A stretch of DNA of 64,000 bases from Syntrophomonadaceae bacterium (lineage in GTDB: Bacteria > Bacillota > DSM-12270 > Thermacetogeniales > Thermacetogeniaceae): assembly GCA_012840385.1 (NCBI GenBank), contig DULK01000093.1, positions 62,001-126,000 of the forward strand. Reading direction: 5' to 3'. Shown here piece after piece: positions 35,334 to 54,134 of this stretch. The translations under genes were made by a program, and so were the position numbers. A model generated the notes under the pieces. It was not told the origin of the DNA, searched no databases, and saw only the letters and a list, made by a program, of their open reading frames with translations. Every line of letters begins with the position of its first letter. The stretch's first letter is position 1.

Positions 35334-35380
35334 TGCTATAATTACAAACATAACATAGATCGATAGAAGGGAAGCCTGTG

Positions 35381-37359: not shown

Positions 37360-37373
37360 AAGGTGAAGATCAA

Positions 37374-38555
37374 ATGATTGGATTCAGCAAACTTTTGACC
37401 GGAAAGGCTACAATTTCCGCAACACTCCGTGCGGAACAGTGCGGCAGTCTGCCCCCTCATTTACTCCAGTTTTCTACGGTAAAACGGCCGATTGTGGTCT
37501 GGAATATGACGAGGCGCTGCAACCTCCGCTGCTGGCACTGCTACCTGGAAGCGGGTGAGGGGGATTATGGGGATGAACTAACTACCCTGCAGGCAAGGCG
37601 GTTGATCGAAGAGTTGGCGGAGATGAGGGTCCCGGTTCTGCTTTTTTCAGGGGGCGAACCCCTGCTCCGTAAGGACCTCTGGGAACTGGCGGAATACGCC
37701 AGTTCGCTGGGGATCAGGCCGGGATTATCCACCAACGGTACCCTGGTTACTCCCGAGGTGGCTGCCAGGATCAAACGAAGCGGCTTTGCCTATGTGGGGA
37801 TCAGCATTGACGGCAGACAGGAAACCCACGATAATTTCCGTGATGTTCCGAACTCCTTCTCCCGGGCTCTTGATGGGATTCGTAATGCGCAGGATGCGGG
37901 ACTGAATGCGGGAGTGCGCTTCACCGTAAACAGGGATAACTATCAAGATCTACCTTTTCTTTTAGATTTAGTTGAGAAGGAAGGGATCAGGCGTTTCTGC
38001 CTGTACCACCTGGTATACGCAGGTCGCGGTAAGGGACTGGCCGAAAAGGATCTCTCCCTTGCACAGAAACGGGAACTGGTTAATATCTTGATTGAACAAA
38101 CAAACCTTTTAAGACGGAAAGGGGTTGAGGTGGAGATCCTCACCACGGATAACCACGCCGACGGAGTTTACCTATACCGGTGGGCCCTTGAGCATCTCCC
38201 CGAACGGGCGGAGGAGATTAAAAAGCTTCTGGAATTCCACGGGGGGTGTTCTGCCGGAGTGAAGATGGTCAATGTGGGTCCCGAGGGTTATGTTTACCCA
38301 TGCCAGTTTTGGCGTTCTGGGTATTTAGGCAAATTTCCCGAAAAAACATTTCAAGAGATTTGGTCTGATGAAAACAACAGCCTGCTCCGGGCGTTAAGAA
38401 ATAAAACAGATTACCTGAAAGGGAAGTGCGGAAGGTGTAAACACAACGCAATTTGCGGTGGCTGCAGGATTAGGGCGGAGACAGTGACGGGTGATGTTTG
38501 GGAGGAGGACCCGGCCTGTTATTTAACCGAGGAAGAAATAAGTTCTCCTATTTGA
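37374..38555 (+). CDS. ahbC: 12,18-didecarboxysiroheme deacetylase (AhbC, radical SAM)
   Basis: A 393-residue radical SAM enzyme. It opens MIGFSKLL with LPPHLLQFSTVKRPIVVWNM, then the SAM cluster RRCNLRCWHCY (Cys49, 53, 56). A C-terminal SPASM-like region has CGRCKHNAICGGCR and CSAGVKMVNV. The N-terminal KLL...LP(S/P)HLLQFS...P(I/V)VVWNMTRRCNL string is characteristic of AhbC, which removes two acetate side chains to give Fe-coproporphyrin III. Its place between hemA and hemB fits the siroheme-dependent heme route. Confidence 0.85.
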   Translation: MIGFSKLLTGKATISATLRAEQCGSLPPHLLQFSTVKRPIVVWNMTRRCNLRCWHCYLEAGEGDYGDELTTLQARRLIEELAEMRVPVLLFSGGEPLLRKDLWELAEYASSLGIRPGLSTNGTLVTPEVAARIKRSGFAYVGISIDGRQETHDNFRDVPNSFSRALDGIRNAQDAGLNAGVRFTVNRDNYQDLPFLLDLVEKEGIRRFCLYHLVYAGRGKGLAEKDLSLAQKRELVNILIEQTNLLRRKGVEVEILTTDNHADGVYLYRWALEHLPERAEEIKKLLEFHGGCSAGVKMVNVGPEGYVYPCQFWRSGYLGKFPEKTFQEIWSDENNSLLRALRNKTDYLKGKCGRCKHNAICGGCRIRAETVTGDVWEEDPACYLTEEEISSPI

Positions 38556-38606
38556 TCGGGGCTTTCTCTCAGAATATACCATATACCAGAAGGGGGTTAT
38601 AGCCAC

Positions 38607-39584
38607 ATGAATTTTCCACAAGTGAGACTGCGCCGTCTCCGTAGCAGTTCTGCTCTTCGGGAACTTTTACAGGAGACAAGACTTACAACAAACGACTTGA
38701 TTTACCCTCTTTTTGTACAACCTGGTACCGGACGCAAAGATCCGGTGTCATCCATGCCCGGTGTATTTCGCTATTCTCAGGACTTGCTTATAAAGGAAGT
38801 GGAGGAAGCGCATGAACTGGGGATTCGGGCGGTTTTGCTTTTCGGCATTCCGGAAGCGAAGGATGAAGCGGCGACATCGGCCTACGACGATAACGGGATC
38901 GTCCAGCAAGCGGTTCGCCTGTTGAAGAAGACCTTCCCGGAATTGATCGTCATCACCGATGTCTGTTTGTGTGAATACATGAGCCACGGGCACTGTGGTG
39001 TTGTCCGGGATGGGGTGATCGAAAATGACGGGACGCTGCCTCTCCTTGCTCAGACTGCCCTCTCACACGCCCGGGCAGGAGCGGATATTGTTGCCCCTTC
39101 TGACATGATGGATGGCCGTGTCAGAGCCATTAGAGAAAAACTGGATTATAACGGATATCCACATGTTGCCATTCTTTCTTATGCTGCCAAGTTCGCATCA
39201 GCGTTTTATGGGCCCTTCCGGGAAGCGGCGGATTCGGCCCCCGCTTTTGGCGACCGCCGCACTTACCAGATGAATCCGGCCAATGGCAGGGAAGCCCTGC
39301 GGGAGGTTTTGCAGGACATTGCCGAGGGCGCCGATATGGTTATGGTGAAGCCCGCCCTGGCTTATCTTGACGTGATCCGCGCGGTCCGGGAAAAAGTACT
39401 GTGTCCTCTTGTGGCGTACAATGTCAGCGGAGAGTATTCGATGATTAAAGCCGCTGCCGCAAGGGGCTGGATTGATGAAAGGCAGGTTGTCATGGAAAGC
39501 CTTACCGGAATGAAGCGGGCAGGCGCCGATCTAATCATTACGTATTATGCCAAAGATGTGGCCTCCTGGCTCCGGGAGGGGTAA
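38607..39584 (+). CDS. hemB: Porphobilinogen synthase (delta-aminolevulinate dehydratase)
   Basis: A 325-residue cytosolic enzyme condensing two aminolevulinates. The zinc site is [14 protein letters not shown] (three Cys), the first substrate Lys is in [16 protein letters not shown], and the second (Schiff-base) Lys is in [14 protein letters not shown]. Length is standard. The three-Cys motif means the Zn-dependent type. Confidence 0.96.
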
Positions 39585-39587
39585 ATT

Positions 39588-41048
39588 GTGCTCGTCTCCT
39601 GGAACACCACCAATGCCTGCAACCTCAAGTGTCCCCATTGCTACCGGGAAGCTGGTGAAAAGGCTCCTCAGGAACTGACATACCCTGAAGGACTGAAACT
39701 GATAGAGGAGATAAAGCGTGCGGGCTTTCACATCCTTGTCTTCAGTGGAGGGGAACCCCTGCTCAGGCCGGATATTTATGATCTGATTTCATATGCCAGG
39801 TCTTTGGGACTGCGCCCTGTCTGCGGGACGAACGGGACGCTGTTGACACCTCAGGTTGTCCGGAAACTCCGGGATGCCGGTGCGGCAGCGGTGGGGATCA
39901 GCCTCGATAGCACCGATCCTGAAAAACACGACCGTTTCCGGGGAGTGGCCGGTGCCTGGCAGGCTGCAAGAGAGGGAATGGAAAACTGCCGGGCCGCAGG
40001 GTTGCCCTTTCAAATTCACACAACCGTGTTTCCCTGGAACTATGAAGAAATAGAAGCCCTGACCGATCTGGCCTTAAAAACGGGAGCGAGAGGGCACCAC
40101 GTTTTCTTTTTTGTACCGACAGGCCGGGGGAAGGAACAGGCAGAAGCGGTCGCTCCGGAAAAGGTTGAGGACCTGCTGGTACGGCTGCTGCAGCGGCAGA
40201 CGGCTGTTCCCATTGAGGTTAAGCCAACGTGCGCTCCCCAGTTTACGAGGGTGGCCAGGCAGTGTCACATAGCAACGCGTTTTAAACGCGGCTGCCTGGC
40301 GGGAATCTCCTACTGCATCATTGGCCCCGAGGGGGACGTCTACCCCTGCCCGTACATGGATTTGAAGGTTGCCAACGTACGCCGGCTGCCGTTTAATGAA
40401 ATCTGGCGGAGCAATGAGGTTTTCTTGAAACTCCGGGAACAAAAGTACGGCGGGTATTGCGGGATATGTTCTTACCGTCATTGCTGCGGCGGATGTCGGG
40501 CCCGGGCTTTTGAAAAGGGGGATTATCTTGGAGAGGATCCCCTCTGCCTTTATAAGAACCGGCAGGAAAAAAAACTCGCCGGGTTGGCGGAAGAATTAAT
40601 CATTCGACTCCAAAGGGATCTGCCTGTGACCAAGAGACCGTACCTCGCCCTGGCAGAGGAGTTGGGGGTCAAGGAAAAGGATGTCCTGAAAACAATTCGC
40701 TGGCTGAAGGCTAAAGGGGTTGTCAGACGCCTGGGAGCTACCTTTGACGCCCGCAAGCTGGGGTATCACCCCACACTGTGCGCCGCCAAAGTTCCTCCCG
40801 AAAGGGTTGAGGAAGTTGCCGCAGTGATCAATGCCTATCCCGGAGTAACCCATAATTACTTGAGAGAACACGAATACAATCTCTGGTTCACTCTGATTGC
40901 AGAAAGCGAACAGCAACAGGAAGCCCTGATTGAAGAGATCCGGCAAAAAACCGGACTTGCTGAGGTTCTAAATTTACCTGCAAGAGAAATGTTCAAAATA
41001 GCTGTAAATTTTTCCGAGGAGGATCTGCGTGGAGTTTTCGGATCGTGA
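39588..41048 (+). CDS. ahbD: Fusion of AhbD-like heme synthase (radical SAM) with an AhbA-type siroheme decarboxylase domain
   Basis: 486 residues. Residues 1 to about 325 are a radical SAM/SPASM enzyme: NACNLKCPHCYR (Cys11, 15, 18), FSGGEPLLRPD, and the C-terminal YCGICSYRHCCGGCRARA. This fits AhbD, which decarboxylates two propionates of Fe-coproporphyrin III to vinyls to make heme b. From about 330 it continues as an Lrp/AsnC-like siroheme decarboxylase domain (KGVVRRLGATFDARKLGY, VTHNYLREHEYNLWFTL), the AhbA pattern. The proteins are normally separate, and the join is in one uninterrupted frame. It begins 3 nt after hemB. Confidence 0.83.
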   Translation: MLVSWNTTNACNLKCPHCYREAGEKAPQELTYPEGLKLIEEIKRAGFHILVFSGGEPLLRPDIYDLISYARSLGLRPVCGTNGTLLTPQVVRKLRDAGAAAVGISLDSTDPEKHDRFRGVAGAWQAAREGMENCRAAGLPFQIHTTVFPWNYEEIEALTDLALKTGARGHHVFFFVPTGRGKEQAEAVAPEKVEDLLVRLLQRQTAVPIEVKPTCAPQFTRVARQCHIATRFKRGCLAGISYCIIGPEGDVYPCPYMDLKVANVRRLPFNEIWRSNEVFLKLREQKYGGYCGICSYRHCCGGCRARAFEKGDYLGEDPLCLYKNRQEKKLAGLAEELIIRLQRDLPVTKRPYLALAEELGVKEKDVLKTIRWLKAKGVVRRLGATFDARKLGYHPTLCAAKVPPERVEEVAAVINAYPGVTHNYLREHEYNLWFTLIAESEQQQEALIEEIRQKTGLAEVLNLPAREMFKIAVNFSEEDLRGVFGS

Positions 41049-41508
41049 ACTGGCTGTAATTCAGGCTTTACAGGAAGACCTCCCGTTGCGAAGCAGGCCG
41101 TACCGCATCATTGCGGAGAAAACCGGGATGCAAGAGGACGAGGTCCTTGCGGTAATCAGGGAACTTCATGCCAAGGGGGTTGTGCGCCGAATAGGGGGGG
41201 TGCTGGCCCACCGGGCGCTGGGCATTAATGCCAACGCATTGGTGCTCTGGGCCGTACCCGAGGAAAAGGTACCCGAGGTGGGCAGGAAGCTTGCCGCTTT
41301 TCCGGAGATCACCCATTGCTACTACAGGCAGGTACCGGAAAAATGGCCTTACAACCTTTTCACCATGGTACATGCAAGGAACCGCCAGGCATGCCTGGAC
41401 AAGATTGAAAGCATTGCGCGGATTACAGGATTGAGCAATTATCGGGTTCTGATCAGCATCCGTGAGCTAAAGAAGTCCGGCATTACTTACAGGATTCAGG
41501 AGGGTTGA
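41029..41508 (+). CDS. ahbB: Siroheme decarboxylase subunit AhbB
   Basis: A 159-residue Lrp/AsnC-like protein: an N-terminal HTH-like domain (about 1-60, [17 protein letters not shown]) and a C-terminal RAM-like domain with ITHCYYRQ and [13 protein letters not shown], the AhbB-type motif. With AhbA it removes two acetate carboxyls from siroheme to give 12,18-didecarboxysiroheme. GTG 41029 has GAGGAGGAT upstream and lies inside the fusion gene end (20-nt overlap), so the pair is co-translated. Some databases would call it a transcription regulator; context argues against that. Confidence 0.85.
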
Positions 41509-41513
41509 GGTGG

Positions 41514-42827
41514 ATGAGGCGGATTTCACGGTCGCAGCAGTTGTATGAAAGGGCTTGTGATTTGATGCCCGGCGGCGTCAACAGCCCGGTTCGCGCCTTC
41601 CGTGCTGTTGGCGGGGACCCTCTTTTCATTACCAGAGGTGAGGGTTCTAAAATATTTGACGTTGATGGAAACGAATATATCGACTATGTCTGTTCCTGGG
41701 GGCCCCTGATCCTGGGGCATGCCCATCCGGCAGTGGTCGCCGCTCTGGAGAAAGCAATCAGGGCAGGGACTAGTTACGGGGCGCCAACAGAAGGTGAAGT
41801 GGCGCTGGCTTCTCTGATTGTGGAGGCGGTTCCGTCCGTTGAACGGGTGCGTCTGGTTAATTCCGGAACGGAGGCGACAATGAGTGCCGTGCGTCTGGCC
41901 CGTGCCTTTACCGGAAGAAATAAGGTGATCAAATTTGCGGGATGCTACCACGGCCACGCCGATACTTTTTTGGTTCAAGCCGGTTCGGGCGCTTTGACAA
42001 TGGGGGTGCCTTCCAGCCCCGGTGTTCCTGCTGAGATTAGTGGGCTGACGTTAGTTCTCCCTTATAACGATATATCCGCCGTTGAAAATGCTTTTGAACG
42101 CTTTGGGCAGGAAATTGCCGCCGTTATTGTCGAACCCGTTGCGGGCAACATGGGGATTGTGCCGCCGCGCCCCGGATTCCTGGATACGCTGCGGGAACTA
42201 ACGAGTGAAGCGGGGAGTCTCCTGATTTTCGACGAAGTGATCACCGGTTTCCGGCTGGGCCCAGGCGGGGCGCAGCAGCGTTTTGGAGTAAAACCGGACC
42301 TGACCTGTTTCGGAAAGATCATCGGAGGCGGCCTGCCTGTTGGGGCTTACGGCGGCAGGGCCGAAATTATGCAGTTGGTGGCCCCCGAGGGTCCCGTTTA
42401 TCAGGCAGGCACCCTGTCGGGCAACCCCCTGGCGGTGCAGGCCGGAATAGCTACCCTGGAGCAACTCCGGAAGCCGGGGGTTTATGAAGAGCTTGAAGAA
42501 AAGGGAAAACGGCTGGCTGAAGGAATCGGCGAAGCGGCGGCGAAAGCCGGGGTTCCGGTACGAATCAATCAGATCGGTTCCCTTCTCTCCGTTTTCTTCA
42601 CCGACAGGGCGGTGGAGGACCTGGATTCCGCGATAAGGGCGGATCAGGACTCCTACAGGCAGTTTTTTATCTCGATGCTGGAGGAAGGGATCTACCTGCC
42701 GCCTTCCCAGTTTGAAGCGTGGTTCATATCTCTTGCCCATGCGTGGGAAGACCTGGAGAAGACCGTGGCGGCCGCGGAAAAATCATTTAAAAAAATCGAA
42801 AAAAAGGTTTGCCAAAATGGACTATGA
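41514..42827 (+). CDS. hemL: Glutamate-1-semialdehyde 2,1-aminomutase
   Basis: A 437-residue PLP enzyme making 5-aminolevulinate. It has [48 protein letters not shown] and the PLP lysine in [20 protein letters not shown] 41514 has AGGAGG at 41499-41504 with 9-nt spacing. It completes the C5 start of the pathway with hemA and hemB. Confidence 0.96.
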
Positions 42828-43587
42828 ACTCTTTATTAAAAAAGTCAATGAATTCATCGGCATCGATCTAACGAACTATAAAAGGCCGCAGATGGAACGG
42901 CGGATTACATCCTTAATGCGAGCCCATGGTTTCCAAAACTACAGCGAATATCTTGAGGTCCTAAAAAAGGAACCCAATCAGCTAGAAAAATTTCTCAATC
43001 ATTTAACCATCAATGTCAGCGAATTTTACCGTAACCCCAACCAGTGGGACGTCCTTGCGCAAAAGATTTTGCCTGAAATCCTCCGGCGTAACCCTCGCCC
43101 AAAAACCTGGAGCGCCGGTTGTGCCACCGGTGAGGAATCCTATACTCTGGCGATGCTGCTGCGGGAGGCAACCACAGGTTTTTTTCCCCGCATACTTGCT
43201 ACAGATATCGATGAGAAGGCTTTAGCAAAAGCAAAAGCGGGTATATACCAGGAGAAGGCGGTTGAGCACCTCCCGCCTTATTACGTTAAAAAGTATCTAA
43301 CCAAGGTAGGGGATGCCTACCAGGTTATTGATGATTTAAAAAAACTGGTTAATTTTCAAAAGCATGATCTGTTAAAGGACCCTTTTGATACCAATTTTGA
43401 TCTCATCCTTTGCCGAAATGTGGTAATCTATTTTACAAACGAAGCAAAGGATGCCCTTTACAGACGTTTCAGAGAAGCATTGCGGCCGGGAGGCATTCTT
43501 TTTACCGGAAGTACGGAACAGATTTTTCAGGCCTCCCAGTTGGGGATGAAAGCAATATCGTTGTTTTTTTACCAGAGAAAGGATTAA
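42817..43587 (+). CDS. cheR: CheR-type protein-glutamate methyltransferase
   Basis: A 256-residue SAM methyltransferase that methylates chemoreceptor glutamates. The N-terminal helical domain has [19 protein letters not shown]; the SAM site is [33 protein letters not shown] and [12 protein letters not shown] follow. ATG 42817 lies inside the hemL end (11-nt overlap); GTT/TGCC before it gives no strong ribosome site, so re-initiation after hemL is likely. No other chemotaxis gene is in the window, which makes its presence at the end of a heme operon odd. Its stop overlaps the convergent 3D-domain gene by 4 nt. Confidence 0.9.
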
Positions 43588-44051
43588 ATTTTTTCTTGAA
43601 GAATGTATGCCTTTGTAGTTTTGACTCCAAATTCAAGAGCATGTTGGTGATCGTTCATAAAGAGGTCGATTTTATTTCCCTTGATGACACCGCCCGTGTC
43701 CTCTGCGACAAAGATACCGATTCCTTCCAGGTAAAGCATTGTGCCTAGTGGAATAACGGCGGGGTCGATTGCTATTGTACGGTTGGCTTGAGCAGGTTTA
43801 CCACTACTGGTAATACCGTCGCACTTGCCACAGCAAATGTGACACGGGCAATATGCTGTCACCTCCACGTCTAAAAACTTTGCTGATCCGTGATCTTTAT
43901 AGTAATCCCTCCATGCAACTGTTGCAGTTTGTTCTACTGCATGCTGTTGTTTCTCTTGTGGCACCGGGTTTGCCGATGCTGATGTGAGAATTATTCAACT
44001 AAGGGCAATACCAAGCAACGAGTTAAGTATTACTTGTTTTAAATTAAGCAA
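43584..44051 (-). CDS. 3D-domain (double-psi beta-barrel) cell-wall protein with an in-frame TGA in its signal peptide
   Basis: On the - strand, AAGGAGGT (44068-44061) is followed 9 nt later by TTG 44051. Translation gives LNLKQVILNSLLGIALS, then TGA (43997-43995), then IILTSASANPVPQEK in the same frame: a complete signal peptide with a stop in its hydrophobic core. Downstream, 126 residues from GTG 43964 stay open and hold a 3D domain: FLDVEVTAYCPC, AIDPAVIPLGTMLYLEG and FVAEDTGGVIKGNKIDLFM with the three Asp. Relatives (YabE, YuiC, Rpf-like) are lytic peptidoglycan enzymes. Either the gene is broken by a nonsense change or sequence error, the TGA is read through, or GTG 43964 makes a leaderless protein. 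I favour the first. Confidence 0.65.
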
Positions 44052-44175
44052 TTGTTATGTACCTCCTTGATAACAACTTCTACTCAATAATAAAGTGTGC
44101 AGAAACCATAAAGAATATAGTAGTATAATAAGGTTATAGTGCCATATTATAGCAACAAAAGCGTGGTGCTAGGTC
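44052..44175. promoter_or_regulatory. Divergent intergenic region
   Basis: This AT-rich stretch separates the - strand 3D-domain gene from the + strand FtsA-like gene. A TATAAT hexamer lies on the + strand at 44124-44129 with no good -35 partner, and TATAAT also occurs on the - strand near 44150. It likely carries both promoters, but I cannot place them firmly. Confidence 0.4.
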
Positions 44176-46359
44176 ATGGGCAGGGAACCCAAAATCATTT
44201 TTGCCCTCGACACAGGTACACGAACTGTAGTGGGGCTGGTAGCGGAGATCAGTCCCGAAGGTGCGCGCGTGCTCGCCGTTGCGGTGGAGGAACATCGCAG
44301 CAGAGCAATGCTGGATGGACAGATCCATGATATAGAAAAAGTGGCAGGAGTTGTATTGAAAATAAAACAGCAGCTTGAGCAGAAGTTGGGTTTTTCATTG
44401 AAAAAGGTAGCGGTTGCCGCAGCAGGCCGGGCTTTAGTTACGATGCGCCAGGCGGTTGCCCAGGAGGTCTCACCATGGCATGAAATTAAAGAGGAGCAGG
44501 TCAGAAGTCTAGAACTGGAAGCGATCAGAAAAGCCCAGCAATTCCTTGTAAAGAGCAAAGAAATCAAGGACAAGTATTACTGCGTGGGGTATAGTGTTGT
44601 CTCATACCAGCTCGACGAACAGAGGATCGGGAACCCGGTGGGGCAAAGGGGGAAATTGCTTGGTGTAGAACTGATTGCGACGTTTCTGCCTCAGATTGTG
44701 GTGGATTCACTGATTGCAGTTTTGGAACGCGCTGGACTGGAAGTGGATGTGATGACCCTCGAACCGATCGCCGCTCTGGAGTTTGTTGTACCACCTACGA
44801 TGCGTCAGTTAAATATTGCCCTGGTTGATATCGGGGCCGGTACCTCCGATATAGCAATTACAGCAAACGGTAGCGTTATTGCTTTTGCAATGGTTCCCCT
44901 GGCGGGAGACGAAGTAACAGAGCAATTGTGCAGTTCGTACCTCCTGGATTTTATGGTAGGAGAAAAAGTCAAGCGCAAGTTAAAAGATGGAGGCGTTTTG
45001 TCTTTTAAGGATATTCTAGGTATAAAGCATAAAATCCCGAGCGAAGAAATAATCGAGTCTATCAAAGAAACGGTCAAAGAAATAGCTTTTCAAATCGGAA
45101 ACACTATTCTTAACCTGAACGGGGGCCCGCCCCAGGCGGTGATCTGTATAGGTGGGGGTAGCCTTACTCCTTGTCTTACCGAGGAACTGGCGAGAATACT
45201 GGGGCTTCCCGGGCACCGGGTCGCCGTGCGGCCTGCCGAGGGTGTGGGATCTATCAAGGGCTTAAGCCGCAGCCTGGCAGGCCCTGACGGGGTTACTCCG
45301 TTAGGAATAGCTCTCATGGCAGCCCGTCCGCAGGCTCTTGGTTTGGCCCAGGTTGAGGTTAACGACAGGACCGTGCGGTTATTTCGAGGGGAAAATGCCA
45401 CTGTGGCTGATGCTTTACTGGCGGCGGGAATGGGTTTTTCCGAATTGTACGGCAGGCCGGGACGCAACCTTACTGTTGAAGTAAACGGAGAATTGCAGAT
45501 AATCAAGGGTAACACAGGAGAGCCTGCGGAGATTTATCTAAACGGGGATAAGGCTGAATTGGATACACCTCTTCCGCCTGGCGCAGTAATCAAAGTGGGG
45601 GAGCCAAAACCCGGTTGTGACGCTAAAGCTGTAATAAGAGATGTGCTCCCGTCGAACCTACCGGTTATTAACATTCTTTATAATGGTGAATCAAAGGCAC
45701 TGGGACCGGTTATTTTTATGAATGGTCAAAGAGCAACACTGGATACGGTTATTGAGGATCATGCAGTGATTACCTGGCATCCGGTCAGAACAATACAGGA
45801 CGCCCTTCTTTCTTTAGGTTTTTCGGAAGCTCAACTCTCTCCGAATAAGTTACACTTGTTCTTTAACGGGGAACAAAAAGAAATCAGTTTGCGTCCCTTC
45901 CGGATCTATAAAAATCGTTCAATCGCCGATCTTTCTGATACGATCGGCGAGGGGGATGAACTGAGCTATGAACCGTTTACCCCTCTACTCCGTGTCGGTG
46001 ACTTGTTGAATCAAGAGAATTGCGACTTTCCTGAGGATGAGATAAACGTTTTTGTTAATGGAGAATCAGTTGTCTTAAAAGGATACGGGATGCGTATTTT
46101 AAAAAACGGGATCAGGGTTGACAGGGATGAAGCGGTCGAGGACGGTGACGAGATCCAGGTGTCAAGGGATCCCGAGATCGTGCCCATTTTTGCAGATATC
46201 TTCAATTTTATTGATGTCGAGCGGACTCCGCCAAGCGCGACCGCGCGCCTGGTGATGCTTTTGAATGGACAGGAAGCCCAGTTTACGACACCAATCAAGG
46301 ATGGGGATAAAATTCGCATTTATTGGAAGGACGTAAGCAAGGTAGCGGAGAAACTATAA
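44176..46359 (+). CDS. Long FtsA/PilM-like ATPase with repeated C-terminal domains
   Basis: 727 residues. Residues about 7-395 are an actin/Hsp70-fold ATPase of the FtsA type: phosphate-1 IFALDTGTRTVVGLV, phosphate-2 IALVDIGAGTSDIAI and the adenosine loop ICIGGGSLTPCLTEELA. FtsA is normally about 420 residues; here about 330 more follow. That tail contains roughly five similar units built as hydrophobic-NG-x5-7-L-x5-GD-x-I (IYLNGDKAELD, IFMNGQRATLD, LFFNGEQKEI, VFVNGESVVLK, MLLNGQEAQFT), suggestive of small beta-grasp-like domains. No clear membrane helix is seen. The role is unknown; division or envelope work is possible. The ribosome site before ATG 44176 is weak. Confidence 0.75.
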   Translation: MGREPKIIFALDTGTRTVVGLVAEISPEGARVLAVAVEEHRSRAMLDGQIHDIEKVAGVVLKIKQQLEQKLGFSLKKVAVAAAGRALVTMRQAVAQEVSPWHEIKEEQVRSLELEAIRKAQQFLVKSKEIKDKYYCVGYSVVSYQLDEQRIGNPVGQRGKLLGVELIATFLPQIVVDSLIAVLERAGLEVDVMTLEPIAALEFVVPPTMRQLNIALVDIGAGTSDIAITANGSVIAFAMVPLAGDEVTEQLCSSYLLDFMVGEKVKRKLKDGGVLSFKDILGIKHKIPSEEIIESIKETVKEIAFQIGNTILNLNGGPPQAVICIGGGSLTPCLTEELARILGLPGHRVAVRPAEGVGSIKGLSRSLAGPDGVTPLGIALMAARPQALGLAQVEVNDRTVRLFRGENATVADALLAAGMGFSELYGRPGRNLTVEVNGELQIIKGNTGEPAEIYLNGDKAELDTPLPPGAVIKVGEPKPGCDAKAVIRDVLPSNLPVINILYNGESKALGPVIFMNGQRATLDTVIEDHAVITWHPVRTIQDALLSLGFSEAQLSPNKLHLFFNGEQKEISLRPFRIYKNRSIADLSDTIGEGDELSYEPFTPLLRVGDLLNQENCDFPEDEINVFVNGESVVLKGYGMRILKNGIRVDRDEAVEDGDEIQVSRDPEIVPIFADIFNFIDVERTPPSATARLVMLLNGQEAQFTTPIKDGDKIRIYWKDVSKVAEKL

Positions 46360-46390
46360 CCCGCATTTTAGATCAACCTCCGTGCATCAC

Positions 46391-46419
46391 TTGACAGTTA
46401 TGATCATTCGTGTTATTTT
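46391..46419 (+). promoter_or_regulatory. Sigma-A promoter of tRNA-Leu
   Basis: TTGACA (46391-46396), a 17-nt spacer and TATTTT (46414-46419), 9 nt before the mature tRNA 5' end. Confidence 0.7.
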
Positions 46420-46428
46420 AATAGAGAC

Positions 46429-46516
46429 GCGGCTGTGGCGGAATTGGCAGACGCGCTAGACTCAGGCTCTAGTGGTCATTGCGACCGTGGAGGTTCAAGT
46501 CCTCTCAGCCGCACCA
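46429..46516 (+). tRNA. tRNA-Leu (anticodon CAG)
   Basis: A class II tRNA of 88 nt. The acceptor GCGGCTG pairs with CAGCCGC and has A73 and encoded CCA. The anticodon stem CTAGA/TCTAG has loop CTCAGGC (anticodon CAG), followed by a long variable arm and the T arm GAGG/CCTC with TTCAAGT. It reads CUG. A terminator follows at 46531. Confidence 0.95.
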
Positions 46517-46530
46517 GGAATAAGATTAAT

Positions 46531-46558
46531 ACCTGCTCGAGGGAGCAGGTATTTTTTT
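46531..46558 (+). terminator. Terminator after tRNA-Leu
   Basis: ACCTGCTC (46531-46538) pairs with GAGCAGGT (46543-46550) around a 4-nt loop, then A and seven T. Confidence 0.85.
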
Positions 46559-46796
46559 GTCTGTGAGGAGGAAAATGCTATAATTAGCTTGGTACTGGTG
46601 AACACCGGCCTTATGATCGTGAGCGGTTTGCGATGGCGACATTGGGTTTGATGCTTTTTGTTGGAGAGGTGGATGATGGAAAGAACGGGGTTTGAGAACC
46701 GGGGACTGTCGGCCTGTGCTTTTATCCGTTGAACCCTGAACTTGCTAAGCTTGTGAAATATTAAGTGTTGTTTTCGCAATTAAAGGAGTGTGCGGG
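46557..46796 (+). promoter_or_regulatory. Promoter and long leader of the UbiB-family gene
   Basis: TTGTCT (46557-46562), a 16-nt spacer and TATAAT (46579-46584) overlap the end of the tRNA terminator. The predicted start near 46591 leaves a leader of about 205 nt with small possible hairpins (for example TGGTGAACACC). I recognise no known riboswitch or small RNA in it, and no gene of credible length. Confidence 0.5.
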
Positions 46797-48482
46797 ATGA
46801 CCAGTAAAACCGGAGGATTGCTGCGGCATTACCGGCACTGGCGGCGCTACAGGGAGATCCTCAACATCCTGATTAAAAACGGGTTGAGCTTTTTTGTCGA
46901 AAGGCTGGACCTTCCAGGTCTTCCGTTGTATCGCCGTCTAAGAAGAGGCGTTGTTACCCGGGAAGAAGATATTTTAAACTTGCCACAACGGTTGTCTCGG
47001 GTAATGAGGGAATTGGGGCCGACCTTTATAAAGCTCGGCCAGTTGCTGAGTACCCGTCCCGATCTATTACCGGAAGAATATATCCGGGAGTTTGCTAAAC
47101 TGCAGGACCGGGTAGCTTCAGTGCCTTACGATCAGGTTGAAACCGTATTCTTAAAAGAGTTCGGAAAGCCGCTGGACGAGGTTTTTGAATGGTTTGACAA
47201 AGAGCCCGTTGCTTCGGCTTCAATCGGACAGGTGCACCGCGCCAAACTGCGCACGGGGCAAGATGTGGTTGTGAAGGTTCAGAGGCCGGGCATTGAGCGT
47301 ACCATAAGAGTGGATTTGGAGATCATAGCAGAAATAGGGAGCATGATTGAACAGAAGACGAGACTGGGTGAAGTATACAAGATATCAGAAATGATAGAAG
47401 AATTCAGCGCGTCCATTATGGAGGAATTGGATTTTACGTTGGAGGGCCGCAACGCAGATATCTTTAGGAAAAACTTCGAAGACGATCCTCATGTTTATAT
47501 TCCAAGGGTGTATTGGGAGCATACGACGCGACGTATTCTGGTAATGGAATATGTGCAGGGTCAAAAAATTACAACACGTCAAGAACTCAGGGAAGCCGGT
47601 TTCAATCCGCTCCAGATAGCCCGCCGACTGGTGGACGCAATGATCAAGCAGGTCTACCTTGATGGTTTTTTTCACAGTGACCCCCACCCGGGCAATTTGG
47701 CTGTTCTGAATGATAATAAAATCGTTTTTATGGACTTCGGCCAAATCGGGCAAATTGACGAAGAGCTTAGAGAAAAAGCAGCCGACCTGGTCCTTGCCCT
47801 GGTAAAGCACAACCTGGACGACATTATAAAAGGTTTGCTCCAGATCGGGGTTATCCATGGGCAACCCAATTTGGCAAGGCTGAGGCGGGAACTAAGCAGG
47901 CTTGAAAGAAAATACTACAGACTCCCATTGCGTGAGATCAGCCTGGGTACGTCAATACAGGAATTGCTGGAGGTTGCCTGGCGTTACCAGATTCAATTTC
48001 CTTCCGAGTTTGTAATGGCTGCAAAAGCCCTGATTACTCTGGAAGCGGTTATCAGGGAACTGGCACCGGAAATAAGCCTTATAGAAATTGCAGAACCCTT
48101 TGCCTCTCGCGTGATCTGGAAGCGTTATGATCCTCGCCGTATCAAGCGGCGTTTCTTAGAAAACGTCGCAAAAACCACGGCAACCATTGCCCGTTTGCCT
48201 TATCTGGCCGAAGGTGTAGCCGAGAGGATCAATCATGGCCAGGTTTCGCTTCTTGTTGAGAATAAGGAATTTCCAATGGTCATCGGGGCATTACGAAAAT
48301 CTGTAAACCGTCTTGCTTTGAGTATAATTCTCGCAAGCCTGCTGGTTGCAGGAGCCATTTTAGTCAGCATGGAGCCTTCCTCTATCTTTTCACGTTATCA
48401 CCTCTCGGAAATCATTTTCGTGCTTACCTTGATCCATTCATTTATCCTTACAATTCTGCTTGTATTTTATTCCCGCGATTAG
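46797..48482 (+). CDS. ubiB: UbiB/AarF/ABC1-family atypical kinase
   Basis: About 561 residues. The UbiB signature KLGQLLSTRPDLLPEEY, the lysine-bearing VASASIGQVHRAKL (Ala-rich loop in place of the kinase P-loop), DVVVKVQRPG, the catalytic-like DGFFHSDPHPGNLAVL and the VFMDFGQIG motif are all present. Two hydrophobic C-terminal segments (LALSIILASLLVAGAIL and IIFVLTLIHSFILTILLVF) anchor it in the membrane. The family supports isoprenoid quinone handling, which fits the quinone genes at 25-29 kb. ATG 46797 has AAGGAG 9 nt upstream. Confidence 0.9.
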   Translation: MTSKTGGLLRHYRHWRRYREILNILIKNGLSFFVERLDLPGLPLYRRLRRGVVTREEDILNLPQRLSRVMRELGPTFIKLGQLLSTRPDLLPEEYIREFAKLQDRVASVPYDQVETVFLKEFGKPLDEVFEWFDKEPVASASIGQVHRAKLRTGQDVVVKVQRPGIERTIRVDLEIIAEIGSMIEQKTRLGEVYKISEMIEEFSASIMEELDFTLEGRNADIFRKNFEDDPHVYIPRVYWEHTTRRILVMEYVQGQKITTRQELREAGFNPLQIARRLVDAMIKQVYLDGFFHSDPHPGNLAVLNDNKIVFMDFGQIGQIDEELREKAADLVLALVKHNLDDIIKGLLQIGVIHGQPNLARLRRELSRLERKYYRLPLREISLGTSIQELLEVAWRYQIQFPSEFVMAAKALITLEAVIRELAPEISLIEIAEPFASRVIWKRYDPRRIKRRFLENVAKTTATIARLPYLAEGVAERINHGQVSLLVENKEFPMVIGALRKSVNRLALSIILASLLVAGAILVSMEPSSIFSRYHLSEIIFVLTLIHSFILTILLVFYSRD

Positions 48483-48540
48483 AGCAGCAGCATAACTGAA
48501 GGTATGTTAAAATATTCACAAATCCAAAACAAAAAATTTC

Positions 48541-48568
48541 ACAAAAGCAGGAAATTTTCTGCTTTTGT
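48541..48568. repeat. Perfect inverted repeat downstream of the UbiB-family gene
   Basis: ACAAAAGCAG (48541-48550) pairs with CTGCTTTTGT (48559-48568) around GAAATTTT. No T run follows, but the stem ends T-rich, so it may be the 3' end signal of the ubiB transcript or a protein site. The remainder of the 48483-48864 gap, upstream of cooC, is AT-rich and shows no gene; I could not fix a promoter for the operon. Confidence 0.55.
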
Positions 48569-48864
48569 AGAAAGTAATATACGCTACAATTTAAATCGAA
48601 GAGTGGGAAAACCGATTCACCGTTCGCGACTCCGAAAGAGCCTATCCTGTTTTAAAAAAACTTAAAGTTGAATAATCTTTTTTGAAAAAAAGGATTTCAG
48701 CAAGATTTGTAGAAGAATACTTAACAATCTGTATAAAAGATTTTTGTTTTAGTGTAAGGCATAAAAGGGGGGAGCCTTGAGTAAAAATCAGTGGGTATGA
48801 GTTTAGTTATGATTGAGGGGTATCCGGTTATCATTTAACATTTATGGTCAAAGGGAGTGTTCTT

Positions 48865-49647
48865 GTGAAAATTGCCATTACCGGCAAGGGTGGAGTGGGA
48901 AAGACCACACTTGCCGCAGGACTAGCAAAGCTCTTTGCCCAAGATGGTTACCAGGTTTATGCTGTTGATGCGGACCCCGATATCAGTCTTGGAACGATGT
49001 TAGGTGTACCTGAAAAATTGCTTGCCGCCCAGCCTCCGCTGATTGAAATGAGGGATTTGATTAAAGAGCGGACAGGAGCGGGAGGCGGCTTGTATATCTT
49101 AAACCCGCAAGTTGACGATGTCCTTGATAAATACGCAATTGACCTAGGTCAGATTAAACTGCTCCGCATGGGGGGTTATAAACAGGTCGGTAGCTCTTGT
49201 TATTGCCCCGAAAATGCCTTCCTCAACGCTGTTGTAAACTCTCTCCTCCTCGGGAATCGCGAAGTCGTCATCTTAGATTTTGGCGCCGGAATTGAACACT
49301 TAACCCGTGGTACAGCGCGGGGTGTTGACCTCATGCTTATCGTTACTGAACCAACGAGGGTTAGTGTCGATACGACGCGCGTTATCCGGCAAATGGCCAG
49401 AGATATGGAAGTGGCAAGGATCAAGGTGGTTGGAAATAAGATACGCACTCCAAAAGAAAAGGACTTTTTGTACCGCTCTTTTAGTGAGGATGAAATCCTG
49501 GGATACATTGATTTCGATGAAACTCTTTGGGAAAAGGCAATGCTAGATGACCCCCGGGGATTGGAAGAGGTTATACAGAAGTCTGTCAAGCAGGTGTTTG
49601 ATCAGGTAATCAGTGAGAGGGGGGAGGTTACGGAAACAAAAGGTTGA
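48865..49647 (+). CDS. cooC: CooC-type nickel-insertion ATPase for CODH/ACS
   Basis: A 260-residue MinD/CooC-like P-loop ATPase. It has the deviant Walker A GKGGVGKTTLAAGLAK, VYAVDADPDISLG, and the nickel/dimer CxC motif in GSSCYCPENAFL. It aids Ni insertion into CODH or ACS in the cytosol. GTG 48865 follows AAGGGAG (48850-48856) at 8 nt; ATG 48844 lacks a site. It heads the acs operon. Confidence 0.88.
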   Translation: MKIAITGKGGVGKTTLAAGLAKLFAQDGYQVYAVDADPDISLGTMLGVPEKLLAAQPPLIEMRDLIKERTGAGGGLYILNPQVDDVLDKYAIDLGQIKLLRMGGYKQVGSSCYCPENAFLNAVVNSLLLGNREVVILDFGAGIEHLTRGTARGVDLMLIVTEPTRVSVDTTRVIRQMARDMEVARIKVVGNKIRTPKEKDFLYRSFSEDEILGYIDFDETLWEKAMLDDPRGLEEVIQKSVKQVFDQVISERGEVTETKG

Positions 49648-49655
49648 TTTAAACA

Positions 49656-49728
49656 GGTACCGGAGACCTCTAGAAAAAAGTTTAGACCAGGCTCCGGGAG
49701 AACCGGTTGTCGGCGGTTAATTTTTAAT
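49656..49728 (+). promoter_or_regulatory. Two hairpins between cooC and acsA
   Basis: CCGGAGACCT and AGGCTCCGG pair (about 49664-49697, one bulged A). A second weaker hairpin, AACCG (49701-49705) with CGGTT (49714-49718), is followed by AATTTTTAA. They could adjust the cooC:acsA ratio by partial termination or mRNA processing. Confidence 0.45.
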
Positions 49729-49746
49729 AAAAGGGAGGTTAAATGT

Positions 49747-51783
49747 ATGCCGAGATTTAGTGATACTTCTCTTCAGAATTCAAAGCCGGCAGTAGACCGT
49801 AAGAACAGAATCAAGGATCCAAAAAACATCATGCGTACTGTGGATCCGGCTGCACTCGAAATGCTCCAGTATACCAAGGAAAATAACATCATCACAGCGT
49901 TCGACCGCTGGTCTGCCCAGCAGCCGCAATGTGCCTTTGGTTACCAGGGAATTTGCTGCCGCATCTGTTTCGCCGGCCCCTGCCGGATCAAAGCTGAAGA
50001 GGGTCCAGGCAGTATGGGTATTTGTGGGGCCAAGGATTATACCATTGTTGCCCGCAACGCCATCAGAATGATGGCAGGTGGAGCATCAGCCCACTCCGAC
50101 CATGGTCGGGAAATAGCCAATGTCTTACTGCATGCGGCTGAGGGACATGCTCCGGACTACACGGTAAAAGATGTAGACAAGCTGCACCGGGTGGCCAAAC
50201 GCATCGGGTTGAGCGTGGAAGGGAAGTCCGATCTGGAACTGGCTAAGGAAGTCGCGGAGGCTGCTTTGGCGGACTTCGGACGCCAGACCGGCGAACCCTG
50301 CACCTTCTTATGGTCTACAATCTGCGAAGGCCGGAAAGGCAAGTTCTCCGAATGCGATGTGGTTCCGACATCTATTGACCGCGCTGTGGTTGAAGTATTG
50401 CACAGGACCCATGTAGGTGTAGACGCCGATCCGGTCAACATCATCTTCGGTGGTATCAAGGCTGCCCTCGGTGACTACACCGGAATGCACCTCTCCACCG
50501 ACCTGTCCGATATCCTCTTCGGTACTCCGAAGCCGGTTCTGAGTGAGGCCAACCTGGGTGTGATCGACCCGGATAAGGTCAACATCATTGTCCACGGCCA
50601 CAACCCGATATTGAGCCAGATGGTTGTGGACACGGCCAGGGAGATGGAGGAAGAGGCGAAGGCTGCCGGTGCCAAGGGAATAGGCATTGCCGGTATCTGC
50701 TGCACAGGTAATGAGGTTTTGTCTCGCAACGGTATTCCTATTGCAACCAGCTACATGGCACAAGAGCTGGCCATCGCCACCGGCGCCATTGATGTCATGG
50801 TAGTAGATGTCCAGTGTATCATGCCTGCGGTGCGCAATGTGGCCGAGTGCTTCGGGACAAAGCTTGTGACTACTCTGCCGATTTCCAAGATTCCAGGGTC
50901 CTACCACTTTGCCTTTGATGAGGCAAAGGCAAAAGAAAGCGCTGCCGGTGTGATCAGACTTGCCATCGAAACCTTCAAGACACGCAAAGAGAGCGGAAGG
51001 GCTACCAGAGTTCCGCAGTTCAAGAACAAGCTGATGGCTGGCTTCAGCTTAGAGGCTTTAATGGATCTCTTCGCTGCCATCAACCCGGACAACCCGATCA
51101 GCGTATTGACCGATGCTATCCTGAACGGCGAGATCGCCGGGGTTTGCCTGCTGGCCGGTTGCAACAACCTCGAAGCGGTTTACGAAAAGAACCATACGGA
51201 AATCATCAAAGGGTTGGCCCAGAACAACGTGTTCATGGTTGGTACCGGATGCGTCATGCAGGCCGCCGGTAAGCACGGCTTGCTGAACTATGACGCCGTA
51301 GAGAAGTACGCCGGGCCGGGCCTCAAGGCGTTCATTGACAGGTTATACGAGGCTAACAAGGATAAGCTGCCTGACAAGCTGCCGCTTGCCTTCCATATGG
51401 GTTCCTGTGTTGACAACACAAGGGCTGCTGACCTCTGGACGGCAATGGCCAATGAACTGAAGGTAGACGTGCCGAAGGTTCCGTTTGTTGCCAGTGCGCC
51501 GGAAGCCATGAGTGAAAAAGCGGTAGCCATCGGTACATGGGTAATTGCCAACGGCATTCCAACCCATGTCGGTGCAATGCCGCCTCTGGAGGGAAGCAAC
51601 CTGGTCTGGAGCGTTGTCACCTGTATCGCCCACGACGTGTTCGGCGGCAACTTCATCCTCGAGACAGATCCTGAGGTAGCAGTCAAGAAACTGGTAGCTG
51701 CTCTTGAATACCGTACATGGAAACTCAGGATTCATAGGAAGGCCGCTGAAGTGTATGAGACCGAGTTATGCCAGGCCTTTTAG
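49747..51783 (+). CDS. acsA: Carbon monoxide dehydrogenase catalytic subunit (CODH of CODH/ACS)
   Basis: A 678-residue homodimeric Ni-Fe-S enzyme interconverting CO2 and CO. D- and B-cluster cysteines lie in FGYQGICCRICFAGPC and GSMGICGAKDY. C-cluster ligands lie in VHGHNPILSQM (His), GICCTGNEVL, CLLAGCNNLEAVY, VGTGCVMQAAGKHG and HMGSCVDNTRAADL. GGGAGG precedes ATG 49747. It works in complex with AcsB, encoded 28 nt downstream. Confidence 0.96.
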   Translation: MPRFSDTSLQNSKPAVDRKNRIKDPKNIMRTVDPAALEMLQYTKENNIITAFDRWSAQQPQCAFGYQGICCRICFAGPCRIKAEEGPGSMGICGAKDYTIVARNAIRMMAGGASAHSDHGREIANVLLHAAEGHAPDYTVKDVDKLHRVAKRIGLSVEGKSDLELAKEVAEAALADFGRQTGEPCTFLWSTICEGRKGKFSECDVVPTSIDRAVVEVLHRTHVGVDADPVNIIFGGIKAALGDYTGMHLSTDLSDILFGTPKPVLSEANLGVIDPDKVNIIVHGHNPILSQMVVDTAREMEEEAKAAGAKGIGIAGICCTGNEVLSRNGIPIATSYMAQELAIATGAIDVMVVDVQCIMPAVRNVAECFGTKLVTTLPISKIPGSYHFAFDEAKAKESAAGVIRLAIETFKTRKESGRATRVPQFKNKLMAGFSLEALMDLFAAINPDNPISVLTDAILNGEIAGVCLLAGCNNLEAVYEKNHTEIIKGLAQNNVFMVGTGCVMQAAGKHGLLNYDAVEKYAGPGLKAFIDRLYEANKDKLPDKLPLAFHMGSCVDNTRAADLWTAMANELKVDVPKVPFVASAPEAMSEKAVAIGTWVIANGIPTHVGAMPPLEGSNLVWSVVTCIAHDVFGGNFILETDPEVAVKKLVAALEYRTWKLRIHRKAAEVYETELCQAF

Positions 51784-51811
51784 AACGGGTTAGAGGAAAG
51801 GGGGAAAAAGC

Positions 51812-54031
51812 ATGTCCACAGCGTGGCGCGTAGACAGAGAGAGATTTGAAGACATTTATGCAGGCTCTCTGGAACCCGGTAAAGAGCCAAAAAAGCTATT
51901 CAGACAGGCCTATGAGGGAACCATTGTGGCATTAAGTTACGCAGAAATCCTGCTGAACAAGGCAATCAGAGATTTTGGCCCTGATCACAAGGTTGGGTAC
52001 GGTGGAGAGACCGCTTACTTTATACCCGCTATTCGTGCATTGAGTGGACTTGAAATAACAAAGCTGGGTGACTTTGTACCAATTCTGAACAAGATGCGGG
52101 ACCAGGTTCATCCGGAGATCAGCCTGGAGAACGCAATGCTCTGGGGCGAAGCCGTCATCCATGCGGCGGAAATTATTGAGGCCGTCCGGTATGCAACGGG
52201 CCGCCATGAGTTCCTGCCGAAACCCTGGACCGGGTTTATTCCTGATACCTATGTCCGTAAATGGGGTATCAAGCACGTAGACTGGACGATCCCGGGCGAG
52301 GTGGTAATCGTCGGCCGCTTCCGGACATCTGATGATGCCCTGAGGATCGTCAACAAACTCGTGCAGAAAGGGTTCATGCTCTTCCTGTGCGATGAGGTTA
52401 TCGAACAATTGCTTGAGAAAGGTTACAAGTTTGACATCGAAGCCTGGCCGGTTTACCCGTTGGGGAACTTTACCCAGGTGATCCATGCTGTAAACTACGC
52501 CTTCCGTGCATCCTTGATCTTCCCTGGAATACCTCCGGGAGACAAGTTCATGCACAGGAATTACCAGCGTGACCGTATCCTCGTTTACGTCCTGGCTCTC
52601 GGTGAACGGGATATTGTCAAGGTTGCTGCCTGCTTCGCAGCCATTTACATGGGCTTCCCGTGCATCGTCGACCAGCCGCTGGAAGAGGACGAGATCTGGC
52701 CAGACTGGTACTTCTCGGTACCCGATTACGATGAAGCGATCCAGATTGGTATTGAGGTACGTGGCATCAAGATCACTGCCATCGAGGTCGACGTTCCTAT
52801 CGCCCACGGCCCTGCCTTCGAGGGTGAGACCATCAGGAAGGCCGATATGTACGTTGAGTTCGGCGGCGGCCGCTCCACGGCATTCGAATTGGTAAAGATG
52901 GTGGATGCAGAAGAGGTCACCGATGGCAAGATCGAAGTGATTGGGCCCGATGTGGACCAGATGGAGGAGGGCAAGGCCTATCCGCTTGGAATCGTGGTCA
53001 AGGTATACGGGCGTAAGTTCCAGGAAGACTTCGAGCCTGTGCTGGAGCGTCGTATCCATTACTTCACCAACTACGGTGAAGGAGTATGGCACATGGGCCA
53101 GAGAGATCAGAACTGGTCCCGTATCAGCAAGGGAGCACGTGAAAAAGGCTTCACGCTAAAAGACCTGGGCAAACTGCTCTATGCCTACTTCAAGAAGGAA
53201 TATGCTGCGATCGTCGACAGGCTTGAGGTGGTCCTGATCACCGACCAGGCCGAAGTGGAAAAAGCCCTGGCAGAAGCTCGCGAGAAGTACCAGGCCCGTG
53301 ACGACAGGCTGAAGAACCTGCGTGACGACGCGGTGGATGTCTTCTACACCTGCACCCTCTGCCAGTCTTTTGCGCCGACTCACATCTGCTTCGTGGCGCC
53401 TGAGCGTACCGGCCTCTGTGGTGCAGTCAGCTGGCTTGACGCCAAGGCGACATACGAGATCGACCCGACCGGTGTTTGTCAGCCTGTACCGATCACCTCT
53501 GAATATGTGATTGACCCTGTAGCGGGAGAATGGTCATCCATCAACGAGACGGCAGCGGCAAGAACCCAGGGCAAGACCACCTCGGTCTGCATGTACACCA
53601 TGATGGACCGCCCGATGACCACTTGCGGTTGCTGCGAGTGTATCCTGGCCCTTGTCCCAGAGTGCAACGGTTTCATGGTTACAACCCGTGAGCACAAGGG
53701 AATGACGCCGGTAGGTATGACCTTCTCCACACTGGCCGGCATGGTAGGCGGCGGCAACCAGACACCGGGCTTCCTTGGGGTCGGACGTCTGTACCTGGTA
53801 AGCCGCAAGTTCCTGCCTGCTGACGGAGGCATCGGAAGGATCATCTGGATGCCCAAGGAACTGAAGGAGCAACTTAGGGAACAGCTCAATGAGCGTGGCA
53901 AGGAAGAGGGCTACGGCGATAACTTTGCAGACATGATTGCCGATGAAACAATAGGAATTACACCGGATGAGATCATGCCGTACCTCGAAGAGAAGGGACA
54001 TCCTGCCCTTAAGATGGATCCGTTAATGTAA
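51812..54031 (+). CDS. acsB: Acetyl-CoA synthase (CODH/ACS alpha subunit)
   Basis: A 739-residue enzyme joining CO, the methyl group of the corrinoid protein and CoA to acetyl-CoA, or cleaving it in reverse. The A-cluster cysteines are in YTCTLCQSFAPTHICFVAPE, GLCGAV and TTCGCCECI. The N-terminal domain that holds the CO tunnel to AcsA is intact, so this is the long bacterial form. It is followed by a strong hairpin before acsC. Confidence 0.96.
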   Translation: MSTAWRVDRERFEDIYAGSLEPGKEPKKLFRQAYEGTIVALSYAEILLNKAIRDFGPDHKVGYGGETAYFIPAIRALSGLEITKLGDFVPILNKMRDQVHPEISLENAMLWGEAVIHAAEIIEAVRYATGRHEFLPKPWTGFIPDTYVRKWGIKHVDWTIPGEVVIVGRFRTSDDALRIVNKLVQKGFMLFLCDEVIEQLLEKGYKFDIEAWPVYPLGNFTQVIHAVNYAFRASLIFPGIPPGDKFMHRNYQRDRILVYVLALGERDIVKVAACFAAIYMGFPCIVDQPLEEDEIWPDWYFSVPDYDEAIQIGIEVRGIKITAIEVDVPIAHGPAFEGETIRKADMYVEFGGGRSTAFELVKMVDAEEVTDGKIEVIGPDVDQMEEGKAYPLGIVVKVYGRKFQEDFEPVLERRIHYFTNYGEGVWHMGQRDQNWSRISKGAREKGFTLKDLGKLLYAYFKKEYAAIVDRLEVVLITDQAEVEKALAEAREKYQARDDRLKNLRDDAVDVFYTCTLCQSFAPTHICFVAPERTGLCGAVSWLDAKATYEIDPTGVCQPVPITSEYVIDPVAGEWSSINETAAARTQGKTTSVCMYTMMDRPMTTCGCCECILALVPECNGFMVTTREHKGMTPVGMTFSTLAGMVGGGNQTPGFLGVGRLYLVSRKFLPADGGIGRIIWMPKELKEQLREQLNERGKEEGYGDNFADMIADETIGITPDEIMPYLEEKGHPALKMDPLM

Positions 54032-54102
54032 CCGGAGAAGCCCAGGCAGGCCACCGTGTACCGGTTAACACCTTGAGCGGTGGCCGCTGGGCCCGGATTT
54101 TT
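54032..54102 (+). terminator. Large hairpin with T tract between acsB and acsC
   Basis: Left arm 54040-54056 (GCCCAG..GGCCACCG) pairs with right arm 54078-54092 (CGGTGGCC..CTGGGC), extended by CCGG at 54032-54035 and 54093-54096, then ATTTTT. This has the form of a terminator placed inside the operon, before acsC, so it probably lowers distal expression rather than ending the unit. Confidence 0.65.
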
Positions 54103-54134
54103 CTAAGTAAAAATAAAGAAAGGAGAAGGGACAA

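Follow-up and report, generated by a model that had tools for sequence, protein, structure and literature searches.

The described system closest to the protein reported here is FtsA (TIGR01174, PF14450), with which it shares an actin-fold ATPase and the order of its motifs, and from which it differs by a tail of ~330 residues where FtsA has a terminal amphipathic helix. PilM is likewise an FtsA-related ATPase, but it lacks such a tail and gives the lower score, and no pilus genes were recognized among the neighbors of the family described below in the loci compared. The tail itself resembles the ThiS, MoaD, SAMP and TGS domains in its hairpin-helix-NG...GD order as well as in sequence and fold matches, but its units are fused in series to an ATPase, and the sequence of the tail lacks the C-terminal Gly-Gly, so that nothing points to a role in conjugation or as a sulfur carrier. 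Transcobalamin-like SLBB domains have a hairpin inserted after the helix, as does our model of the first tail unit; the units of the present family differ in being cytosolic, serial and attached to an ATPase, and their structural likeness to these domains stays below Z 8. A Citrobacter multi-ubiquitin protein (9d5a), compared by its title alone, also has serial ubiquitin-fold domains in a bacterium, but no ATPase appears in that title. As for FtsA among the clostridia, passages of two papers describe C. difficile as lacking an FtsA homologue (PMC10693644, PMC12548448) and a passage of the former asks what substitutes for it; passages of two others mention ftsA with ftsZ for C. acetobutylicum and C. 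beijerinckii (PMC2530871, PMC6362236). Literature searches pairing FtsA with beta-grasp, ThiS, ubiquitin-like or FtsA-like terms found no description of the architecture reported here, the available text of two beta-grasp papers does not contain the word FtsA, and the family seems to be undescribed.

The gene lies in the window, by which we mean the whole 64,000-nucleotide stretch of Syntrophomonadaceae DNA that was analyzed. Its ATPase part and immediate surroundings are laid out as follows:

44176..46359, + strand: whole gene, FtsA-like ATPase with beta-grasp tail; 727 aa, ATG to stop in a single open frame
44188..45330, + strand: FtsA-type actin-fold ATPase domain, residues ~5-385, from the NCBIfam FtsA alignment and PDB FtsA chains
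44197..44241, + strand: D12/G14/T15 motif, which we take to be phosphate-1; kept in 100/100 members
44419..44679, + strand: region corresponding to the FtsA 1C (SHS2) subdomain, residues ~82-168, as presumed from FtsA alignments
44815..44871, + strand: VDIGAGTSDIA motif, presumably phosphate-2; D218, G220, G222 and T223 in 100/100 members
45139..45171, + strand: IGGGSLTP motif, taken here as the adenosine motif; G326 and G327 in 100/100 members, G328 in 97/100
46528..46553, + strand: downstream terminator-like element, an 11-pair stem with a T run after it; a consensus match only

A first-pass annotation, made from the letters alone, had called the protein an FtsA-like ATPase distinct from PilM, and both points hold. 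The NCBIfam FtsA model (TIGR01174) aligns residues 8-378 with model positions 2-368 of 371 at 114.9 bits, which makes FtsA the closest curated family although the curated cut-off of 175.85 bits is not reached. PilM (52.7 bits, against a cut-off of 133 for TIGR01175), EutJ (49.6 bits) and MreB all score well below FtsA, and the best PDB matches of the ATPase part are solved FtsA chains (E 2e-19). Pfam SHS2_FTSA gives 14.5 bits against a cut-off of 25.4; the FtsA model nonetheless aligns through the 1C region. The nucleotide motifs of the actin fold are intact, their residues being retained in 97-100 of 100 family members. It is well supported that the protein is an FtsA-type actin-fold ATPase with a repeated beta-grasp tail and not a canonical FtsA.

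Of 398 Bacillota genomes, 214 contain a relative at E <=1e-30, almost all of them a single one. When 129 family sequences of at least 560 aa were freed of duplicates and contained sequences, the remaining 100 all fell into one clade of an ATPase-domain tree (support 0.94), from which four canonical FtsA proteins separated with support 0.99. Conserved signatures of its own, such as DGQIHD, ATFLP and TLEPIAA, also set the family apart from FtsA. This is a monophyletic, FtsA-related Bacillota family in which three to five beta-grasp domains, as read from sequence, replace the short amphipathic anchor of FtsA. The annotation had proposed a clostridial cytoskeletal or envelope scaffold; clostridial is too narrow for a family spread across the phylum, while scaffold remains the best reading and one that we infer. 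The f29 members L048 (860 aa) and L081 (849 aa) have a much longer C-terminal extension beyond the last unit.

The tail was divided as follows:

45346..46329, + strand: tail of five homologous beta-grasp units, residues 391-718, from the ThiS match, hhalign and a unit-profile search
45337..45609, + strand: unit 1, residues 391-476, given as the modeled stretch 388-478 with hairpin H0, helix, hairpin H1 and NG...GD segment B1; from the AF2 model and beta-grasp matches
45619..45786, + strand: unit 2, residues 482-537, from hhalign
45787..45978, + strand: unit 3, residues 538-601, from hhalign; its spliced profile matches SAMP2
45979..46170, + strand: unit 4, residues 602-665, from hhalign; ThiS 21.1 bits on its own
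46171..46329, + strand: unit 5, residues 666-718, the conserved C-terminal unit, with no hairpin of its own and the sequence NG..A.FTTPL..GD.I...W

With profiles from 46 family members, hhalign matched the units to one another at 96.8-99.2% in 10 of 10 pairs. Repeats may slip against one another in a family-wide alignment, so the comparison was redone on 7 close homologues alone, whose tails align almost gap-free, and all 10 pairs were again matched, at 46.6-97.6%. Shuffling the columns of one partner never reached the observed score for any pair (0/30 with the 46 members, 0/20 with the 7 homologues), and control windows from the ATPase part gave at most 7.1% and 1.0%, respectively. A five-unit profile searched against the genome recovered all five copies (E 4.0e-26 to 1.1e-15), these being the rows from which it was built; it returned no other match below E 0.5 and one at E 0.5. 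The pairings and shuffles thus bear out the five repeated NG...GD units that had been read in the ~330-residue tail, and neither the structural nor the profile work returned a single unrelated, non-repetitive fold. Across the family the two end units are conserved, with a variable number of units between them.

Several lines of evidence point to the fold of these units. Pfam ThiS matches the tail alone at 5.8e-12 and the whole protein at 39.1 bits against a cut-off of 22.5; singly, the units stay under Pfam cut-offs. Among 15 members, Ub-Mut7C matched 12, ThiS 10 and TGS 9. Short-tailed relatives have a C-terminal domain in the plain order hairpin-helix-NG...GD, and a profile of 7 such domains matched SAMP2, an ubiquitin-like protein of archaea, in the PDB over nearly its full length (2.7e-4). 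A spliced profile, joining the preceding hairpin to the helix and NG...GD segment with the intervening stretches omitted, was made for unit 3 from 12 five-unit members and matched SAMP2 at 1.1e-5, MoaD at 2.6e-5 and ThiS at 4.7e-4; the contiguous helix-hairpin-NG...GD profile of the same unit and members matched SAMP2 at 2.2e-3, over the last strands only. The other PDB searches gave less: the spliced unit 5 profile found only ThiS at 0.15 and the S4-type YabO at 0.061, the contiguous unit 1 profile (12 members) nothing better than 0.49, and a contiguous helix-hairpin-NG/GD profile from three genomes nothing better than 0.17. The alignments were selections, with A8 comprising 7 sequences hand-picked from 12 members, A9 comprising 11 five-unit members and A10, A11 and A12 comprising 12, picked out of 46.

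An AF2 model of residues 388-478, computed from nine aligned stretches of the window protein, L001 and L002, had a pLDDT of 70.5 and a pTM of 0.64; the hairpins were already aligned with one another in its input, and to that extent the model depends on the register chosen. A full-length model from three close sequences (pLDDT 30.6) was discarded, and scans of viral contigs for a deeper alignment yielded no relative. Foldseek returned 698 matches to the unit 1 model at E <=10 and none at 0.001 or better, with SAMP1, ferredoxin-type domains of complex I and hydrogenase, TGS, ubiquitin and ThiS in the top rows, all of which are beta-grasp folds. A second structural comparison gave SAMP1 at Z 7.2, MoaD at 6.7 and the transcobalamin beta domain at up to 6.9; as every Z is below 8, these values support the fold class and leave the nearest beta-grasp subclass unsettled. 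Together with the ThiS, SAMP2 and MoaD sequence matches, the model makes it a well-supported prediction that the tail units are beta-grasp (ubiquitin-fold) domains, in keeping with the original guess of stacked small beta-grasp domains.

The order of elements along the tail raises the question of how these domains are joined. Writing H for a hairpin, a for a helix and B for an NG...GD segment, the window tail runs H0 a1 H1 B1 a2 H2 B2 a3 H3 B3 a4 H4 B4 a5 B5, with five of each element, an extra hairpin at the start and none at the end. Read by eye, members of 590 aa run H0 a1 H1 B1 a2 H2 B2 a3 B3, with three of each, and some other members finish in a plain H a B. Such an order is what a chain of H-a-B domains would give if each domain's hairpin lay in front of the B of the preceding domain. 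In an automatic motif count, H and B were equally numerous in 50 of 100 members on a first pass and 46 of 100 after retraining, and the two commonest H/B patterns were balanced both times (18 and 14 members, then 19 and 11). Many members were unbalanced, probably through missed motifs; since these are only 14 residues long, and the second pass missed a hairpin of P0001 that the first had found, the count is suggestive only. The sequence order thus suggests, without proving, that the beta-grasp parts are interlocked, with neighboring domains stitched together. Alternatively, each hairpin may be a transcobalamin-type insert after the helix.

Whichever connection applies, the protein differs from FtsA at its end, as had been claimed: it lacks an anchor helix at the C terminus, and in 75 of 100 members the final W, which as a rule belongs to the last unit, lies within 12 residues of the end. 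In P0001 only ~9 residues follow the last strand, and the last 15 residues, which overlap that strand, have a moment of 0.64 versus 0.74 in the FtsA of its own genome.

We compared 81 gene neighborhoods, comprising the window and 80 loci that were chosen rather than drawn at random. In the window the gene is flanked by its own intergenic regions. Upstream are a divergent 3D-domain gene and hemL-cheR, and downstream a UbiB-type kinase and CODH-type genes, the names hemL and CODH-type being our assumption. The 3D-domain protein (43584-43964, minus strand) has a member of the same cluster within four genes of the family gene in 8/81 loci, and CheR occurs at that distance in 14/81. The CheR-type methyltransferase frame spans 42712-43587, with a likely start, MDYELF, at ~42817, overlapping the end of hemL at 42827. 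Further upstream, 39588-41508 holds what we take to be a radical-SAM enzyme fused to a siroheme-decarboxylase-type Lrp-like domain in one 486-aa frame, with a separate 159-aa copy after it; the radical-SAM and Lrp-like parts are separate frames in L075 and L104.

The first reading had placed the gene outside any division cluster, which is true of the window but not of the family. Eight of the 81 loci (L072, L079, L092, L116, L121, L128, L130 and L134, from families f37, f91, f115 and f137) have the order mreB-mreC-mreD-PBP2-minC-minD-minE-[family gene]-rodA-M23-M50, with spacings of -11 to 141 bases from minE to the family gene and -19 to 197 from the family gene to rodA. Pfam identified all of these genes in L072, MreB, MinE and RodA in L134, MreB, a MinD-type ATPase and RodA in L121, and RodA in L116; identities in the remaining loci come from sequence clustering. 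A ninth case, outside the 81, was seen by coordinates in G115, where MinE is matched up to C11:57087 and the family gene from 57150. The eight members form one clade (support 0.88), and their loci may thus count as one event; they also have the shortest tails, in proteins of 587-599 aa. Outside this clade the neighbors are unrelated housekeeping genes.

Two further markers were counted in 80 genomes, the first 40 of each random list with and without the family gene. MreB was present in 40/40 genomes with the gene and 37/40 without, and MinE in 36/40 and 24/40 (Fisher p 0.004, ignoring kinship); MinE also follows lineage, and G160, G162, G184 and G194 have the family gene and no MinE match. Five markers were tried in all, and none of the counts takes kinship into account. 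The position beside rodA and minE and the near-constant company of MreB and MinE point to an envelope role, albeit as modest evidence, given that the operon belongs to one clade and the co-occurrence is uncorrected.

While the architecture is well supported, the function has to be inferred. Our leading reading, held tentatively and at somewhat less than even confidence, is that the protein is a cytoplasmic actin-like ATPase whose beta-grasp chain serves as a multivalent adaptor for the cell-wall or Min machinery. By analogy with FtsA, the ATPase domain would bind ATP and self-associate, polymerization being an assumption carried over from that protein, to give an FtsA-like oligomer in the cytoplasm with no membrane anchor of its own. 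The beta-grasp chain could then act as a multivalent arm offering several binding faces. Conserved end units and a variable middle count would fit such an arm if specific contacts were made at its ends and its reach depended on the middle. The arm may dock on membrane or cell-wall partners, our best guess being the mreBCD/PBP2/RodA elongation machinery or Min proteins, and docking would place the oligomer or filament at the envelope, where it would organize wall synthesis. The family protein would presumably act beside canonical FtsA, not instead of it. A more specific version, which we think somewhat unlikely, is that this is an undescribed actin-like envelope protein in more than half of Bacillota, in which the interlocked ubiquitin-fold chain forms a continuous, possibly stiff arm linking an FtsA-like filament to MreB, RodA or Min.

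The closeness to FtsA also invites the idea that the protein is a division FtsA serving as a second tether for FtsZ, one that would reach the membrane through partners of its tail and could replace canonical FtsA. Canonical FtsA scored above its cut-off in 215 of 398 genomes: 133 hold both genes, 81 the family gene only, 82 FtsA only and 102 neither. The 81 of 214 family-bearing genomes lacking a canonical FtsA above cut-off would suit a replacement, as would the reported absence of FtsA from C. difficile in the passages cited above, but the association is positive (odds 2.0) and not complementary, and with 133 genomes holding both, the family gene is no rule-like replacement of FtsA. The source genome has a separate canonical FtsA with an amphipathic end on contig 69, and FtsA is present in all eight genomes with the min-rodA arrangement. 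Nor was an FtsZ-type motif found in an open frame across 80 neighborhoods, the single match having stops in frame, or in the picked frames of window positions 35001-55000. We consider this tether unlikely.

Less probable again is a ligand sensor, in which a transcobalamin-like SLBB tail would control the state of the ATPase through a bound small molecule or wall precursor. In the unit 1 model the helix and the last strands are indeed separated by a hairpin (in this middling-confidence model, strands 46-49 and 52-55 come after helix 23-29), and the beta domain of transcobalamin and intrinsic factor gave the longest alignments, 82-85 of 91 residues at Z 5.8-6.9. A passage on the transcobalamin-like clade gives a hairpin insert as its mark (PMC1796856). 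These alignments, however, have an rmsd of ~4 and a Z below 8, tied with SAMP1 and MoaD; Pfam scans, which do not exclude SLBB, gave no SLBB or DUF4430 match, and no set of conserved residues was recognized as a binding site.

The first-pass annotation had proposed profiling the gene against sporulation and type IV pilus genes, and the association was weak in both cases. That the protein is a PilM-like part of a pilus assembly platform, which would fit the Pfam PilM_2 matches in 15/15 members and the presence of PilT over cut-off in 34/40 genomes with the gene versus 22/40 without, is very improbable given that 6/40 genomes with the gene have no PilT over cut-off, that the NCBIfam PilM score is far under that of FtsA, and that no pilus genes were recognized among the neighbors in 81 loci (by eye, with Pfam on a sample). 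We see an equally slim chance of a sporulation-specific FtsA for the asymmetric septum: of the 335 genomes with spoIVA, 195 have the gene, as do 19 of the 63 that lack spoIVA (44 having neither; odds 3.2), but 140 spoIVA genomes do without it, and the 19 include seven f29 members. The window itself carries this sporulation marker (12088-13563, TIGR02836, E 1.3e-251), and none of seven f29 genomes listed with the gene (G029, G174, G199, G272, G318, G339 and G361) has a SpoIVA match. The family is specific neither to sporulation nor to pili. A role as a chaperone or reactivase, of the EutJ or diol dehydratase reactivase kind, is hardly credible, as the EutJ match and the DDR matches (3/15 members) are far weaker than those to FtsA, and no conserved metabolic partner was found in 81 neighborhoods.

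If real, the stitched beta-grasp chain is an unusual way to make a long arm from the ubiquitin fold. Approximately half of the sampled Bacillota genomes encode this conserved FtsA relative with intact nucleotide motifs, and it is a concrete, testable candidate for what organizes Min positioning and wall synthesis in bacteria with a reduced canonical divisome.
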